Made by a program: the position numbers and the translations under genes. From a virus: 25,473 nt of DNA. The stretch lies in the IMG/VR virus record IMGVR_UViG_3300035119_000065, positions 1 through 25,473 of that record. One strand, 5' to 3'. Shown in pieces: positions 3,511 to 24,793 of the stretch. Every line of letters starts with the position of its first letter. Positions within the stretch are counted from its first letter, which is position 1. The notes beneath the pieces are model-generated. The model worked only from the letters and a program-made list of their open reading frames with translations. It did not search any database and had not been told where the DNA came from.

Positions 3511-4283
3511 GGGTCCTGTCGCTGGGTGCGGGGGTCCAAAGCTCGACGCTGCTGCTGATGGCGTGCCACGGTGAGCTTGAGCTCGATGCGGCGATCTTCG
3601 CGGATACGCAGTGGGAGCCGGCCGCGGTGTACGAGTGGCTGGCGTTCCTGAAGCTTCAGGCTGACGCCGCGTCGATCCCGCTGCACCGCGTCACCGCCGG
3701 CAGCATCCGTGACATCACGCTGGGGGCGGCAGGGAGGCGAAGCGCCTCCCTGCCGCTGTACGTCCAGCAGTCGAGTGGTGCTGAGGGCATCGGCCGGCGC
3801 CAGTGCACCAAGGAGTACAAGCTGCGTCCGATCCAGCGACTGCTTCGGTCCTGGGGCGCGACCGCCGCGCGGCCAGTCGACATGCTCATCGGCATCAGTC
3901 TCGATGAGTACACGCGCATGGCCGACTCGCGCGTGCACTACGTCCGCAACGTCTTTCCGTTGGTCGAGCGCGGTATGACGCGCGGGGATTGCATCCAGTG
4001 GCTGGAGCGCCACGGCTACCCCGAGCCGGTCAAGTCGGCGTGCATCGGCTGTCCGTACCGGCGCAATAGCGAGTGGCGCAAGCTGACGACGGCGGAGTTT
4101 GCCGACGCGGTCGACTTCGATGAGCGCATCCGTCACCACAACCACAAGATGACGGGCCAGCAGTTCCTGCACCGCTCGTTCGTCCCGCTCGCGGAGGTCG
4201 ACCTGCGCTCGGAACAGGACCGCGGCCAGCTCGAGCTCGACTTCGACGGGTGTGGCGTGCTGTGCGCCGGAGACGTGGCCTGA
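3507..4283 (+). CDS. PAPS-reductase-like PP-loop (adenine nucleotide alpha hydrolase) enzyme
   Basis: The 258-residue protein begins with the PP-loop SLGAGVQSS (residues 5-13; SxGxxS type). This binds the pyrophosphate of ATP or an adenylated substrate in N-type ATP pyrophosphatases and PAPS reductases. Further family features are FADTQWEP (31-38), RRQCTKEYKLRPI with Cys100, GISLDEYTR, and CIGCPYR with Cys179 and Cys182. The three cysteines could hold an iron-sulphur cluster or do sulphur transfer. Phages often carry this family, and it is usually labelled phosphoadenosine phosphosulfate reductase, though its true substrate is unknown. With two DNA methyltransferases nearby, a role in nucleic-acid modification is possible. 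ATG 3507 is chosen because it overlaps the previous stop; an upstream extension in frame would cover the zinc-protein gene. Confidence 0.75.
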   Translation: MRVLSLGAGVQSSTLLLMACHGELELDAAIFADTQWEPAAVYEWLAFLKLQADAASIPLHRVTAGSIRDITLGAAGRRSASLPLYVQQSSGAEGIGRRQCTKEYKLRPIQRLLRSWGATAARPVDMLIGISLDEYTRMADSRVHYVRNVFPLVERGMTRGDCIQWLERHGYPEPVKSACIGCPYRRNSEWRKLTTAEFADAVDFDERIRHHNHKMTGQQFLHRSFVPLAEVDLRSEQDRGQLELDFDGCGVLCAGDVA

Positions 4284-4299
4284 TGGCGCGCGTACCGGC
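4281..4299 (+). repeat. 19-bp direct repeat at two gene starts (second copy 4718-4736)
   Basis: TGATGGCGCGCGTACCGGC occurs identically at 4281-4299 and 4718-4736. In both places it spans a TGATG stop/start overlap and codes for the same first residues, MARVPA. The genes that follow are unrelated. Confidence 0.85.
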
Positions 4300-4720
4300 T
4301 GGCGGATTGATCCTGCCGCCGGGCGTCAAGGGTGTCCGCGGTCGCGATCTGTGGCCGACGCCGGATGTGCTGAAGCTCGCCAGTGGTGCGCTGCTGAAGC
4401 ATCACGGCGAGTGGATGCCGATGCCCATCGGCGAGGCCAAGGTGTACCGCGGACCGCACGACCTGACGGTCCTCGTCAGCCTGGACGACCGCGGCGACGC
4501 GTGGGGTCCGCTGCTGCACATGAGCCTGAGCCTGCCGCGCGGGTATCCGGACTGGGACACGATCTACGCGGTCACCCGCGCCGTTTTCGGCGAGCAGGTC
4601 GACGCCATGATGCCGATCCCGCGCGAGGAGGCGTTCATACATCACGCCGTGAAGGGACAACGACACGTCTTTCACGTCACCGAAATGCCGGAAGCCTGGC
4701 CGGCTGAGGGCCACGTCTGA
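4283..4720 (+). CDS. Conserved phage hypothetical protein (145 aa), DUF7694-like
   Basis: The ATG at 4283 lies in a TGATG overlap with the PP-loop gene. The product contains PLLHMSLSLPRGYPDWDTIY, then AVTRAVFGEQVDAMMPIPRE, then EAFIHHAVKGQRHVFHV. This order (H-x-S-x-S with R/G-x-P-x-W-D, a helix ending FG, a D-x-x-M-x-x-P segment and a final H-x-F-H) resembles a phage domain of unknown function that I recall as DUF7694. I cannot verify the family number. There is no signal peptide or membrane segment. It lies between modification genes and the lytic enzyme in the same operon. Confidence 0.6.
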   Translation: MARVPAGGLILPPGVKGVRGRDLWPTPDVLKLASGALLKHHGEWMPMPIGEAKVYRGPHDLTVLVSLDDRGDAWGPLLHMSLSLPRGYPDWDTIYAVTRAVFGEQVDAMMPIPREEAFIHHAVKGQRHVFHVTEMPEAWPAEGHV

Positions 4721-5244
4721 TGGCGCGCGTACCGGCGTTCGTGGCTGGCCTGGTGTGCGGCCTGGTGCTCGGCACCGCGGTCATCATCGGCCACGCCGAC
4801 GACGTGCAGGCGGAGGTGCTCGCGGCGGCCAGTGCGGCACACGTGGACCCGCAGCAGCTCCAGGGCGCGGTCAACACGCTCGAGGCGCACGGCATGCCGG
4901 CCGACCCGTACGTGTACTTGCGCAGCACAGGTGAATTGCCTTCTGAGTCTGAGAAAACTCTGCCGCCGTCGGCGCCGAGCTCACCAGCGGCGTCGGCGAG
5001 CGGTGTTTTCTCCAGCAGAGTGGCGTGCATCATCACGCACGAGAGCCAGGGCAATCCGCGCGCCTACAACCGCAGCGGCGCCGCAGGCCTCGGCCAGTTC
5101 TTGCCCAGCACCTGGGCGAGCACACCCCAGGGTCGCGCCGGGTTGAGCGTGTGGGACCCCGCCGCCAACACGGCAGCTATCAACTACATGCTCGCGGCCG
5201 GGCGCGCTCGGGAATTTGACGCCGTGAGATTTTTCGGATGCTGA
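4720..5244 (+). CDS. Membrane-anchored lysozyme-like (transglycosylase/Rpf-type) wall hydrolase
   Basis: The 174-residue protein has an N-terminal hydrophobic segment (residues 5-26, FVAGLVCGLVLGTAVIIGHA) that would act as signal or anchor. A Pro/Ser-rich linker at about 70-95 follows. Then comes a lysozyme-like domain: ACIITHESQGNPRAYN with catalytic Glu108, SGAAGLGQFLPSTW, and WDPAANTAAINYMLAAG. These are the hallmarks of SLT transglycosylases and resuscitation-promoting-factor-like folds, which cleave the glycan strands of peptidoglycan. It ends in Cys and overlaps the C5 methyltransferase start by 7 bp. It may be the endolysin, with the N-terminal segment acting as a signal-arrest-release anchor. 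The early-operon position is odd for that. Confidence 0.7.
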   Translation: MARVPAFVAGLVCGLVLGTAVIIGHADDVQAEVLAAASAAHVDPQQLQGAVNTLEAHGMPADPYVYLRSTGELPSESEKTLPPSAPSSPAASASGVFSSRVACIITHESQGNPRAYNRSGAAGLGQFLPSTWASTPQGRAGLSVWDPAANTAAINYMLAAGRAREFDAVRFFGC

Positions 5245-6275
5245 AAGCGATCTCGTTGTTCTCTGGCGTGGGCGGTTTCGAGATTGGACTCGGGAGGGCT
5301 GGCATTGAAACCGTGCTGCAAGTTGAAAACGACCCATGGTGCCTGAGCGTCCTCGAGCGGCACTGGCCCGAGTGTGAGCGAGTCACAGACGTTCGCAAAG
5401 TGGACGCGACCGCACTTCAGGGACGACGCCGAGACATGGTCAGCGTCGGAGCCAACTCCGACGCTGAACGGTTTCGAGATGCGGGATGGGGGCGAGACAA
5501 CGCCACCGGTGTTGATCTCGTCTACGGCGGATTCCCGTGCCAGGACCTCAGCGTGGCCGGCAAACGGGCCGGTCTTCGGGGCGAACGAAGCGGTCTGTGG
5601 CATGAGTTCCACCGCGTGCTGCGCGAGCTGCGGCCACGATGGACAGTCATTGAGAATGTTCCCGGACTGCTTTCCTCCAACGGGGGTGCCGACTTCGGTG
5701 TCGTACTCCGGGGCATGGATGACCTCGGGTACGGTATCGCGTGGCGAGTTCTGGACGCGCGCTGGTTCGGAGTCCCCCAGAGGCGCCGTCGTGTCTTCAT
5801 TGTCGGCTGTCTTGGAGACGCGCCCCGTGCCGCGCAAGTACTGGCTGTCTGCGAGAGCTGCGGCGGGCATTCTCAGACGCGCAGCGAAGAGAGGCAAGAC
5901 GTTGCCTACGCGCTTAATGCAAGCGTTAGAGGCACTGGCGACGGGCATGGGAACGCCTGGAACTCCAACTACGTAGCCGACGACATTGCCCATACGCTTG
6001 ATGACGGCGCTCGAAGGGCTAGCGTCGAGTTGCCGATGATCGCCGCCAGCCTCAGCGCTGGCGGGAGCCAGGGTGTCAGACGCCTGACGCCGCTCGAGGC
6101 AGAGCGTTTGCAAGGCTGGCCTGATGATTGGACGCGCTACACCGCTGATGGCCGCGAGATCCCCGACTCTCACCGGTATAGAATGATTGGAAATGGTGTC
6201 GTCAGTACGGTTTCGGAATGGATAGGACACAGGCTTGTCTGGGTTGACACGCACATGTCAGGTGGCCGGCTGTGA
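5238..6275 (+). CDS. C5-cytosine DNA methyltransferase
   Basis: The 345-residue protein carries the full motif set. Motif I is FSGVGGFEIGL (8-18). Motif IV is GGFPCQDLS with catalytic Cys101. Motif VI is ENVPG (139-143). Motif VIII is QRRRRVF (181-187). The target-recognition end has RRLTPLEAERLQGWPDDW (281-298). Motif X is RYRMIGNGVV (313-322). It transfers a methyl group from SAM to C5 of cytosine in a DNA site that cannot be predicted, probably as protection against restriction. A spacer of about 40 residues between motifs III and IV is longer than usual and coincides with an overlapping +1 frame (5374-5976). Residues 315-333 are duplicated after the next gene (6764-6820), so the present C-terminus seems to have been replaced. 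The last residues (VWVDTHMSGGRL) overlap the HNH gene. The base composition looks less GC-rich than its neighbours, which fits recent acquisition. Confidence 0.9.
   Translation: MLKAISLFSGVGGFEIGLGRAGIETVLQVENDPWCLSVLERHWPECERVTDVRKVDATALQGRRRDMVSVGANSDAERFRDAGWGRDNATGVDLVYGGFPCQDLSVAGKRAGLRGERSGLWHEFHRVLRELRPRWTVIENVPGLLSSNGGADFGVVLRGMDDLGYGIAWRVLDARWFGVPQRRRRVFIVGCLGDAPRAAQVLAVCESCGGHSQTRSEERQDVAYALNASVRGTGDGHGNAWNSNYVADDIAHTLDDGARRASVELPMIAASLSAGGSQGVRRLTPLEAERLQGWPDDWTRYTADGREIPDSHRYRMIGNGVVSTVSEWIGHRLVWVDTHMSGGRL
5374..5976 (+). CDS. Possible overprinted gene inside the C5 methyltransferase (+1 frame, 200 aa)
   Basis: A 200-codon frame, +1 relative to the methyltransferase, runs from a GTG at 5374 to a TAG at 5976. 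Its translation includes TFAKWTRPHF, EPTPTLNGFE, STADSRARTSAWPANG, then GAWMTSGTVSRGEFW, SSLSAVLE, and KYWLSARAAAGILRRAAKRG followed by KTLP. I recall a set of phage hypothetical proteins with the same order of motifs (ADSxAxTSA, W-x-x-SG, SLSxVLE, then YxLSxxAxxGILRRAxKRGxxLP), often found beside C5 methyltransferases. The ADSRARTS segment is the shifted reading of the GGFPCQDLS codons, so the overlap may be a shared trait of the family. No good ribosome-binding site precedes the GTG. It may be expressed by frameshifting, or be a conserved shadow. Function unknown. Confidence 0.4.
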   Translation: MSESQTFAKWTRPHFRDDAETWSASEPTPTLNGFEMRDGGETTPPVLISSTADSRARTSAWPANGPVFGANEAVCGMSSTACCASCGHDGQSLRMFPDCFPPTGVPTSVSYSGAWMTSGTVSRGEFWTRAGSESPRGAVVSSLSAVLETRPVPRKYWLSARAAAGILRRAAKRGKTLPTRLMQALEALATGMGTPGTPTT

Positions 6276-6763
6276 GCGACCGCACTTCGCCGCTCACTTG
6301 TGCGGACCGCACTACAAGCGCAAGTGGCGATACGGCGACCCGCTCGCTGGTGGTCCGTTCGTGGGGGAAGATGCCGCGCGTCTGGCAGCGCTCTATGTGG
6401 TGCAGGCTGATGGCTGTTGGCTCTGGCAGGGAGCGATCGACTGGGTCGGTTACGGAGAGGTCTGGTGGCGTGGCAAGCGCCATCGCGCTCACAGAGCGGT
6501 CTATCAGGAGTTACGCCACACCCTGCAGGACGGCACCGAACTGGATCATGTCTGCCGCGTCAAGCGATGCGTCAACCCGGATCATCTGGAGATCGTCACC
6601 CACGCGGAGAACTTGCGTCGCCACTACGCCGCGAGCGTGGTTGCCTGCCCTAAGGGCCATCTCTATGACGAAGCAAACATCTATCGTGATCATGGCAAGC
6701 GTCGCTGTCGGGAGTGCATGCGCGAGCAGCAGCGTCGAAGGAGAACACGCAACCGCAACTGAC
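6180..6763 (+). mobile_element. Putative homing-endonuclease insertion in the methyltransferase 3' end
   Basis: This segment lies between two copies of the codons for R-M-I-G-N-G-V-V-x-T-V-x-E-W-I-G-H-R-L (6180-6236 and 6764-6820). It holds an alternative C-terminal coding end for the methyltransferase plus the HNH gene. I infer that it entered at the codon before Arg-Met-Ile-Gly and displaced the original end. The left boundary is set by homology alone, so it is approximate. No intron core structure was traced. Confidence 0.5.
6235..6762 (+). CDS. HNH homing endonuclease
   Basis: The 175-residue protein has an N-terminal zinc knuckle (TCQVAGCERP with a later CGPHY), a region of aromatic and basic residues (GYGEVWWRGKRHRAHRAVY), and the HNH_3 core. 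In the core, ELDHVC (DH at 104-105), CVNPDHLEIVTHAEN and N125 supply the metal and catalytic residues. A C-terminal zinc finger follows: ACPKGHLYDEANIY, then RRCRECMREQQRRRR. Such enzymes nick or cut a long DNA site and spread their own gene by homing. The first zinc cysteine requires a start at TTG 6235 or TTG 6244, overlapping the methyltransferase end by about 40 bp. The following 69 bp repeat the methyltransferase C-terminus, which shows where the gene was inserted. Confidence 0.85.
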   Translation: MSGLTRTCQVAGCERPHFAAHLCGPHYKRKWRYGDPLAGGPFVGEDAARLAALYVVQADGCWLWQGAIDWVGYGEVWWRGKRHRAHRAVYQELRHTLQDGTELDHVCRVKRCVNPDHLEIVTHAENLRRHYAASVVACPKGHLYDEANIYRDHGKRRCRECMREQQRRRRTRNRN

Positions 6764-6832
6764 CGCATGATCGGCAACGGCGTGGTCGCGACGGTTGCCG
6801 AGTGGATCGGGCATCGCTTGACGCATCAATGA
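6764..6832 (+). pseudogene. Stranded 3' end of a C5 methyltransferase gene
   Basis: The frame at 6764-6832 reads RMIGNGVVATVAEWIGHRL, then THQ and a TGA stop. It matches residues 315-333 of the upstream methyltransferase at 17 of 19 positions. Twelve of the 17 identical residues use different codons in the two copies; here the codons are mostly GC-ending (ATC, GGC, AAC, GTG, GAG), whereas the upstream copy often uses ATT, GGA, AAT or ATA. It has no start of its own in frame except the ATG at 6767. It is best read as the original end of the methyltransferase, cut off by the HNH insertion. Alternatively, it could be a second exon if the insertion is spliced out. Confidence 0.75.
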
Positions 6833-6854
6833 ATACCCTGATTGGAGCTGCTGT

Positions 6855-7742
6855 ATGACCCAATCGCTGGCGCGCGTCGAACCGAACGGAGTGCGCTATC
6901 AGCCGACGACCATCGGCACCGAGCAACTCGGCAGCATCATGGTCAAGTCCGGCTTCTTCAAGGACACGCGGGACGAAGCCCAGGCGATAGTCAAGATCTT
7001 ATATGGCAGCGAGCTCGGCTTCGGCCCGATCGCGTCCATGCTCGGCTGCTACATCGTCGACGGGCGGCCATCGCTGTCCGCGCAGCTCATCGCCTCGGCC
7101 ATTCAGAAGTCAGGTACCTATCGCTACCGTGTGCGGGAGTGGACAGACACGCGCTGTCGTATTGAGTTTTTCGAGCGCGGCGAATCTGTCGGTGAGTCCA
7201 CCTTCTCGCTGGACGACGCCAGCCGCGCCGGCCTGGCAAACAAGCAGACATGGAAGCAATACCCGAAGGCGATGCTGTGGGCGCGCGCCATGTCCCAGGG
7301 TGCGCGTGCGTATGCCCCGGACGTGTTCAACGGTGCCATCTACACGCCCGACGAGTTGCAGGAGGACTGGGAGGCAACGACGCGCGACGCCATCCCCGCA
7401 CCGCCGCCTGAGGCGTACGTGCCGACCGTCGAGCAGGAAGTTGACGATCGTGACCTGGTGCGCTCGGCGGACGAGAGAATCTGGCAGCGCTGGGAGAAGC
7501 TGCTGAGCGATGCGCGGAGCCTGGGGCTGAACCCGGAAACGGTCGCGCTGCCGGTCGAACGCGCGGACCTGAAGTTCCGCGGCACGGCACTGGTGGAGGC
7601 GATCAGCGAGCGCCAGGAGCAGTTGGACAGAGACGAGGCGGCGCACATCGCCGAGCAGGCGAATACCGCGGCGGGCGACCGCGACGAGGACCTGGACCGC
7701 ATCGAAGTGGCGCGTCAGAAGGCGAGCGGGGAGTTGCGGTAG
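6855..7742 (+). CDS. recT: RecT-family single-strand annealing protein
   Basis: The 295-residue protein matches the RecT family over about residues 25-175. Key stretches are SGFFKDTRDEAQAIVKILYG, ELGFGPIASMLGCYIVDGRP, LSAQLIASAIQKSGTYRYRV, SLDDASRAGLANKQTWKQYP, and AMLWARAMSQGARAYAPDVF followed by IYTPDEL. RecT proteins coat single-stranded DNA, anneal complementary strands and drive phage recombination and replication. The C-terminal third is acidic with alternating charge (about residues 195-295) and probably contacts partners. GGAG at 6843-6846 precedes the ATG at 6855 by 8 nt. No exonuclease of the RecE/YqaJ type is seen next to it; the VRR-NUC protein is a possible partner. Confidence 0.85.
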   Translation: MTQSLARVEPNGVRYQPTTIGTEQLGSIMVKSGFFKDTRDEAQAIVKILYGSELGFGPIASMLGCYIVDGRPSLSAQLIASAIQKSGTYRYRVREWTDTRCRIEFFERGESVGESTFSLDDASRAGLANKQTWKQYPKAMLWARAMSQGARAYAPDVFNGAIYTPDELQEDWEATTRDAIPAPPPEAYVPTVEQEVDDRDLVRSADERIWQRWEKLLSDARSLGLNPETVALPVERADLKFRGTALVEAISERQEQLDRDEAAHIAEQANTAAGDRDEDLDRIEVARQKASGELR

Positions 7743-24130: not shown

Positions 24131-24793
24131 CTACACCGGCTGCCAGGCGACTGGGCACGTGCGTTTATCGCGATGCACCAGTTCGTGACAGGTGGCGCAC
24201 AGCGCAACCATATTTCCGAGGGTGTACGGCCCTTGCGCAACGATGCGGTGCACGTGCGAGTGAATCTCGTCGAAGCCGCACAGTTGGCAGGGTGTTTCGC
24301 CGACGCGCGCGCGGAACCTGTCGGTCTGGGTGCCCTGTGTCTGTCGTCGCTCATAGGCATAGTGTTGGCGGCACAGGCCCTTCGCTTGGTGCGCGTTCGT
24401 GCAGCCAGGCCGCGAGCACATAGCCGGCTGTCGCTCGCGCCGGCGGGCCATGTGGCACTTCTGGCACCGCACGGCGCGGCTGGATCTCGGCAGCAACTCC
24501 CCGCAGTCGCTGCAAGTCCTGCCCGCGTTCTTGCTGTGGCAGGCCCAGCAGCGTTTCGTAGCCGCCCTCGTGCCGAGCGGCAGGAGCGTGCCACAGTCGG
24601 AGCACTTCGGCCGTCCTGTTCGCTGGGCCATCCAACAGGTTCGGCATTGCTTCGAGCGCCGGTTTGCGAGCGGTTTGCCGCAGGTCGGACACGGCGGATG
24701 CATGTTGTTGCCCAGATAGCAGGGCCGGCAGACGACCGACCCTGTTCGCGCCTTGTTGCCGCACTCACGGCAGACGCCATCCCATCTTCCCAT
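24131..24793 (-). CDS. HNH endonuclease with zinc-ribbon array
   Basis: This 220-residue protein lies antisense between scaffold and capsid genes. Residues 1-140 hold a chain of Cys-x2-Cys modules: VCRECGNKAR, VCRPCY, PCPTCGKPL, QCRTCW, KCSDCGTLLP, RCWACH, TCSDCGELLP, RCQKCH and CSRPGCTNA with a final LCRQHY. They form several zinc fingers that probably bind DNA. The C-terminal part is a short HNH core: PCQLCGFDEIHSHVHRIVAQ, then GNMVALCATCHELVHRD, with the His pairs and Asn in place. Free-standing HNH genes of this plan are known mobile (homing) genes in phages. A promoter-like pair lies upstream (24803-24832, minus) and a hairpin downstream. The start at 24793 is the first in frame with the cysteine array. 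Confidence 0.85.
   Translation of the reverse strand: MGRWDGVCRECGNKARTGSVVCRPCYLGNNMHPPCPTCGKPLANRRSKQCRTCWMAQRTGRPKCSDCGTLLPLGTRAATKRCWACHSKNAGRTCSDCGELLPRSSRAVRCQKCHMARRRERQPAMCSRPGCTNAHQAKGLCRQHYAYERRQTQGTQTDRFRARVGETPCQLCGFDEIHSHVHRIVAQGPYTLGNMVALCATCHELVHRDKRTCPVAWQPV

Follow-up and report, generated by a model that had tools for sequence, protein, structure and literature searches.

An HNH endonuclease gene at motif X of a phage C5-cytosine methyltransferase probably carries a respelled replacement for the gene end that it displaced

Analysis of the methyltransferase locus in the IMG/VR virus record IMGVR_UViG_3300035119_000065, a stretch of 25,473 bases that is referred to here as the window, indicated that an HNH homing element without splicing machinery very probably entered the gene at motif X and carries a replacement for the methyltransferase end that it severed. 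At the level of sequence comparison, the anatomy of the locus, the polarity of its native and carried gene ends, the recurrence of the arrangement and true empty-site relatives in other phages were all established. The original prediction that an HNH gene had entered at the Arg-Met-Ile-Gly codons together with its own end for the host gene was supported, with the downstream copy native and the upstream copy carried.

The features of the locus are listed in Table 1, where the borders of the element were drawn from the duplication described below and from relatives in which the gene has one unbroken end. The methyltransferase translation contains motif I, PCQ, ENV, QRRRR and the target-recognition region, followed by motif X, and its PF00145 domain with PCQ, ENV and motif X identifies it as a C5-cytosine methyltransferase. 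The HNH gene, which likely starts at TTG 6244 (alternatively TTG 6235) and stops at TGA 6760-6762, is read in a different frame and overlaps the methyltransferase 3' end by 32 nt. Its product has an N-terminal Cys motif, an HNH core whose residues are conserved in the alignment and a C-terminal Cys motif, and was assigned to the HNH_3 homing endonuclease domain by a PF13392 match above the cut-off, the catalytic His/Asn/His and the Cys clusters. The right border of the element (TGAC) consists of the HNH stop plus C, and the native copy starts one base past this stop, which is out of its frame. An intein was rejected, as the host frame stops at 6275 and the element length of 584 is not divisible by 3. 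Elsewhere, at window positions 24131-24793 (-), another HNH gene that encodes zinc-ribbon domains directly precedes a capsid-like ORF.

Table 1. Coordinates of features at the methyltransferase locus of the window.
Feature	Positions	Strand	Remarks
Transglycosylase-like (SLT) gene	4720-5244		5' neighbour of methyltransferase
C5-cytosine methyltransferase gene	5238-6275	+	PF00145, E=7e-58 (residues 3-333); TIGR00675 (dcm); phrog_116
Native methyltransferase body	5238-6179	+	Last codon directly precedes motif X; aligned with relatives L001-L023
Carried, recoded methyltransferase 3' end	6180-6275	+	Motif X copy 6180-6236, VWVDTHMSGGRL, stop 6273-6275
HNH_3 endonuclease gene	6244-6762	+	PF13392, E=4e-8; phrog_826, E=2e-41
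Putative inserted element	6180-6763	+	584 bp: carried end, HNH gene and one base
Displaced native methyltransferase 3' end	6764-6832	+	RMIGNGVVATVAEWIGHRLTHQ, then stop; intact, without a start
RecT-like gene	6855-7742		3' of displaced copy

The sequence at 6180-6236 (RMIGNGVVSTVSEWIGHRL) recurs at 6764-6820 (RMIGNGVVATVAEWIGHRL) with 17 of 19 residues, 5 of 19 codons and 37 of 57 bases identical, and the coordinates, frames and residue and codon counts first reported for this duplication were confirmed, as was the statement that the downstream copy runs to a stop (TGA 6830-6832) with no gene in front of it. A flank-copy test compares the protein read just past the HNH stop with that read just ahead of the HNH start; here the window pair scored 94, and random upstream/downstream pairs gave a 99.9% null of 58. 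The codon count alone was ordinary, since end pairs of relatives with 17 of 19 equal residues share 3-13 codons. The exceptional feature is that the upstream copy, whose spelling begins AGAATGATTGGAAAT, fits neither the gene that contains it nor the family of that gene, not the codon difference itself. Ordinary codon divergence was rejected as a full explanation, as the count is ordinary but the position-specific comparison with relatives is not.

That comparison used 21 methyltransferases of the same subfamily from other phages, each with one uninterrupted end. At conserved residues, codon identity to these relatives was 0.47 for the 35 codons preceding the junction and about 0.47 for the downstream copy, equal to the left flank, in comparison to 0.17 for the upstream copy, which was the lowest of all ends (the next-lowest was 0.36). 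In DNA alignments, the left flank scored higher with the downstream copy attached than with the upstream copy attached for 20 of the 21 relatives, with one tie, and in L006, L010, L017 and L020 (L numbers denote the loci compared) attaching the upstream copy did not raise the score above that of the flank by itself. The 19-codon window of the methyltransferase gene with the lowest codon adaptation (CAI) has its first base precisely at 6180, and all 5339 windows taken from core genes of the phage had higher values. GC3 was 0.42 in the carried end and 0.89 in the displaced end; a GC3 change-point test within the methyltransferase was not significant (P = 0.78), so composition alone was not taken as proof. 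As the downstream copy fits the relatives and the upstream copy stands apart from them, the downstream copy is the original end and the upstream copy the one brought in. The displaced copy has no reading frame ahead of it, yet it shows no decay, which implies that the insertion was recent and that the 20 differences in 57 bases predate it. The downstream copy matches these HNH-free relatives, but an empty methyltransferase site was not found in any close relative of the window phage, the nearest syntenic phage (L083) carrying a different, internally deleted methyltransferase there.

The same comparisons bear on an alternative in which a whole methyltransferase-HNH pair replaced an older methyltransferase, leaving 6764-6832 as the leftover end of the latter with neither insertion nor patch. 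The methyltransferase has a GC3 of 0.67, in comparison to 0.83-0.90 for its neighbours, that is near the 0.70 of the HNH gene, and L002 has a natural C-terminus similar to the carried VWVDTHM. Additionally, the slot between the SLT and RecT genes is occupied by differing methyltransferases in relatives, and methyltransferase end fragments stand beside whole genes without an HNH gene (L171, L203) or with another neighbour (L167). The low GC3, the L002 C-terminus and the HNH-free fragments keep such a replacement under consideration; however, we regard it as unlikely, as codon identity falls sharply exactly at 6180 (0.47 to 0.17) with the flank matching the downstream copy, the remnant starts no further than 1 nt from the HNH stop, as at other loci, and in SkinnyPete, L083 and Malisha (see below) the combined flank and native copy agree with relatives that lack an interruption. 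The tail fragments of L171, L203 and L167 themselves arose without an HNH gene and were excluded as a different phenomenon.

Alternatively, the stretch 6180-6260 may have been respelled by selection for HNH translation initiation after a simple duplication of the target, involving neither cleavage evasion nor import. AT-rich starts aid translation initiation, and the recoded stretch is directly upstream of the HNH start. This explanation is nevertheless very improbable, as the undecayed displaced copy leaves only a short span in which 57 nt could have gathered 20 changes, and the patches of mirror-image 5' cases stand after the HNH gene and are still recoded (the carried start of L524 matches at 55/84).

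A self-splicing group I or II intron spanning 6180-6763, with a 5' end that mimics the downstream exon, was also weighed against insertion of a patched element. Excision of 6180-6763 would yield a perfect methyltransferase with its native end, and a 5' end similar to the 3' exon is known among group I introns (an argument discussed in PMC11855218). However, positions 5000-7200 gave no Rfam match up to E=1, no intron family was detected in eight similar loci, and the upstream copy by itself gives the gene a complete end and a stop, the similarity being at the protein and not the nucleotide level. The element ends in C and not in the terminal G of group I introns, and without that G or an Rfam-recognisable core it was not classed among them; an intron of either group is accordingly a most doubtful explanation.

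Several further observations concern the methyltransferase genes of this region. A +1-frame ORF of 200 aa at window positions 5374-5976 (+), within the methyltransferase gene, is conserved in many relatives with stretches ..RTSAWPANGPVFG..SLRMFPD..KYWLSARAAAGILRRAAKRGKTLP.. in common. Methyltransferase codon identity with relatives was 0.74 inside the overlap with this ORF versus 0.45 and 0.48 outside, and stops averaged 0.85 in the +1 frame versus 8.9 in the other frame, a pattern with the look of a real overprinted gene. Profile searches with the ORF were uninformative in Pfam and NCBIfam and gave a weak methyltransferase-labelled hit in PHROG. The target-recognition region expands by repeated in-frame modules such as TLSGGGHPGSNLPGRHKEDDENLVVADP in L003, L010, L017 and L021, and methyltransferase length therefore varies by ~130-280 residues; an aligned gap near residue 275 in many relatives was likewise attributed to in-frame expansion of the recognition region and rejected as an insertion element. 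In L083, the transglycosylase-RecT interval holds a mini-ORF (4281-4504) composed of the first ~28 and last ~45 residues of another C5-methyltransferase family, an arrangement that identifies it as an internal deletion, and L203 has a similar internally deleted methyltransferase (2080-2378) next to a longer one. The region 4100-6154 of L167 contains a tandem duplication of a glycosyltransferase gene along with the last ~23 codons of the preceding methyltransferase.

The flank-copy test, with a criterion designed once the first cases were known, gave 9 passes among 186 non-redundant HNH genes in comparison to 11 among 1433 other ORFs (P = 1.6e-4) and 11 among 6000 random pairings. The hits at L322, L103 and L311 were rejected as arginine/proline-rich chance matches and left out of the cleaned figures, in which, free of low-complexity matches, 6 HNH genes passed versus 3 other ORFs (P = 1.3e-4). 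An independent sample of 70 HNH genes, for which the criterion was fixed beforehand, gave one pass versus 0.13 expected. The first run, on the 23 nearest HNH relatives, returned the window and a low-complexity match with no new real case among them.

Besides L083, several other IMG/VR phages showed the same arrangement. The clear 3' cases were the window, L083, L332, L319, L107 and L321, in which the two copies share 61-73% of bases and, in all except L107, the native copy begins -5 to +1 nt from the end of the HNH stop codon. The host gene of L332 is a D12-class adenine methyltransferase. In L083, the phage nearest to the window in synteny (RecT 77% identical), the insertion lies at the His-Asp-Asp of the terminase, where codon identity to 58 relatives was 0.58 for the flank, 0.50 for the native end and 0.27 for the carried end, and flank plus native end aligned without interruption to the 89%-identical terminase of L364. 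Further candidates of the 5' type were found at L289/L291 and at L488, the latter with a frame error at the join. Constella (L119), with an HNH insertion in a methylase, has no flank copy and was rejected.

Odd spelling after the terminase His-Asp-Asp was also observed in L371, L364, L412/L415/L423 and L388, where the gene is not interrupted, and two of these oddly spelled terminases have HNH genes within ~300 nt downstream. The strongest recoding at the L083 site occurred mostly where an HNH gene is near (L371, L364, L083), while the terminases of L412/L415/L423 and L388 are recoded at the same site with no HNH gene detected. This association was noticed afterwards and is suggestive only; the oddly spelled alleles are possibly homing-resistant or previously homed.

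Isolated phages, which as compared here are not a random sample, provided the clearest evidence, with empty-site relatives. Mycobacterium phage SkinnyPete has an HNH gene, encoding gp53, at motif X of a C5-methyltransferase, as does the window. Its displaced end (NAVTPPAARDLVGVVAESLGVTS) is identical at 62-66 of 72 bases to the HNH-less phages Mao1, Sparky, Piper2020 and Xavia, in comparison to 44-46 of 72 for its carried end (NAVTPCAARDLVGVVAQSLGVSA); where their residues are equal, the copies have 3 of 19 codons in common. The upstream end and HNH region of SkinnyPete are also present at 98% identity in Awesomesauce, DocMcStuffins, Misha28 and TootsiePop. Gordonia phage Malisha is the mirror case, where the native start of lysin B was severed and stands before the HNH gene with its first 28 codons identical at 83 of 84 bases to HNH-less Spooky, and a recoded start (55/84) follows the HNH gene joined to the lysin B body. 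These genomes also address the concern that the window, being an IMG/VR contig, is a chimeric metagenome assembly: isolated phages with finished genomes, SkinnyPete among them, show this layout with junctions exact to the nucleotide, which makes such an artefact extremely unlikely.

Insertion of a patched element at motif X can be interpreted by the following mechanism. The element would sit at conserved motif X (R-M-I-G-N-G) near the methyltransferase 3' end and consist of a short in-frame, respelled copy of all sequence to the right of the insertion point that completes the host gene, followed by an HNH gene in another frame that overlaps the carried copy, with a right border at the HNH stop beyond which the original gene end would continue as an untranslated remnant. 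The HNH enzyme is predicted to nick or cut empty alleles around motif X, and repair templated by the element-bearing allele would copy the entire element in. Insertion would split the original site, and the recoded copy would prevent the left half from meeting a cleavable right half; as the cleavable halves stay apart, the donor is proposed to be immune while full-length methyltransferase is still made. On this reading the junction motif would be where the HNH enzyme cuts and recoding would prevent self-cutting of the carrier, and the intact motifs suggest that the patched methyltransferase probably still works.

Synonymous sites between the copies at eight loci were saturated and not significantly avoided: 28 of 84 codons were identical versus 34.4 expected from host-gene usage (P = 0.07), and divergent donors alone could account for the codon differences. 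Whether these phage HNH elements form a widespread, unnamed 'end-patching' homing class, with recoding selected for uncuttability, is in our estimate evenly balanced. Such a class would target conserved codons near either end of C5/D12 methyltransferases, terminase and lysin B, with a 3' patch placed before the HNH gene and a 5' patch after it.

Homing endonucleases favour conserved targets, yet these targets lie in genes that must stay unbroken. Introns and inteins escape this conflict by splicing, and the HNH elements appear to escape it via a spare, differently spelled gene end, a logic shared with engineered 'home-and-rescue' gene drives. If the end-patching class is real, non-splicing selfish genes gain access to conserved genes, and cleavage sites would be predicted at the junction, for example at motif X or the terminase His-Asp-Asp. 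The class would also account for puzzling methyltransferase and terminase fragments past HNH genes in phage annotations and suggests a reading of the ShiLan domain (see below); the idea is testable in phages of Mycobacterium smegmatis and Gordonia terrae.

Among known systems, the nearest kinds are the phage ShiLan domain (see below) and elements of fungal mitochondria, where Beaudet and colleagues, following the case of Allomyces atp6, described endonuclease ORFs with carried C-termini near the 3' ends of Glomus atp6, atp9, cox2 and nad3 (PMC3630166). There, the carried C-terminus is divergent in nucleotides (63.5% in atp6) yet conserved in protein (91%), the displaced native C-terminus of atp6 and cox2 is not transcribed, and hybrid gene expression was demonstrated by RT-PCR (PMC3630166). 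The window shares the order of an in-frame carried end, divergent in DNA and conserved in protein, then an endonuclease gene, then a displaced native end. It differs in possessing an HNH_3 gene in a dsDNA phage in place of LAGLIDADG or GIY-YIG genes in mitochondria, and the phage HNH cases, unlike the fungal elements, also include 5'-end versions (lysin B, terminase). The original view that carrying a recoded 3' end of a DNA methyltransferase is unusual needs correction, as divergent carried C-termini are documented in fungal mitochondria (PMC3630166) and a partial phage-methylase version exists in the ShiLan domain (PMC11855218).

The ShiLan domain is an out-of-frame HNH gene within a mycobacteriophage methylase gene (ShiLan gp65, L282; PMC11855218), and its first in-frame residues copy the right flank (SYEPVCVAVKP / AFEPIVVARKP, 18/33 nt). 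Like the window, it combines an out-of-frame HNH gene, a 5' copy of the right flank and a border of HNH stop plus C (TAAC in ShiLan, TGAC in the window). However, ShiLan has a mid-gene site in an amino-methyltransferase, 11 copied residues and an entire frame kept open, whereas the host frame of the window stops at 6275, and the two HNH proteins showed no detectable relationship (best match E=0.12). The ShiLan authors discussed the right-flank copy as a possible intron signature and not as a carried patch (PMC11855218); read alongside the present cases, the domain looks like a mid-gene relative in design.

Free-standing phage homing endonucleases such as T4 seg/mob and Aeh1 mobE in nrdA (PMC2988022) resemble the window in that the HNH gene overlaps the upstream gene, has no splicing element and lies in or beside conserved genes. 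In contrast, Aeh1 mobE splits nrdA into two functional pieces, the T4 genes sit between genes, and no carried host-gene end is described for either (PMC2988022). Omega lysin A acquired a new 3' end after HNH insertion with no displaced copy (PMC3706429). Among the papers open to searching, which came mostly from outside subscription journals, none was found to describe a gene-end version in phages. In summary, the principle of the carried end is already known from fungal mitochondria, and its gene-end version in phages appears to be new.
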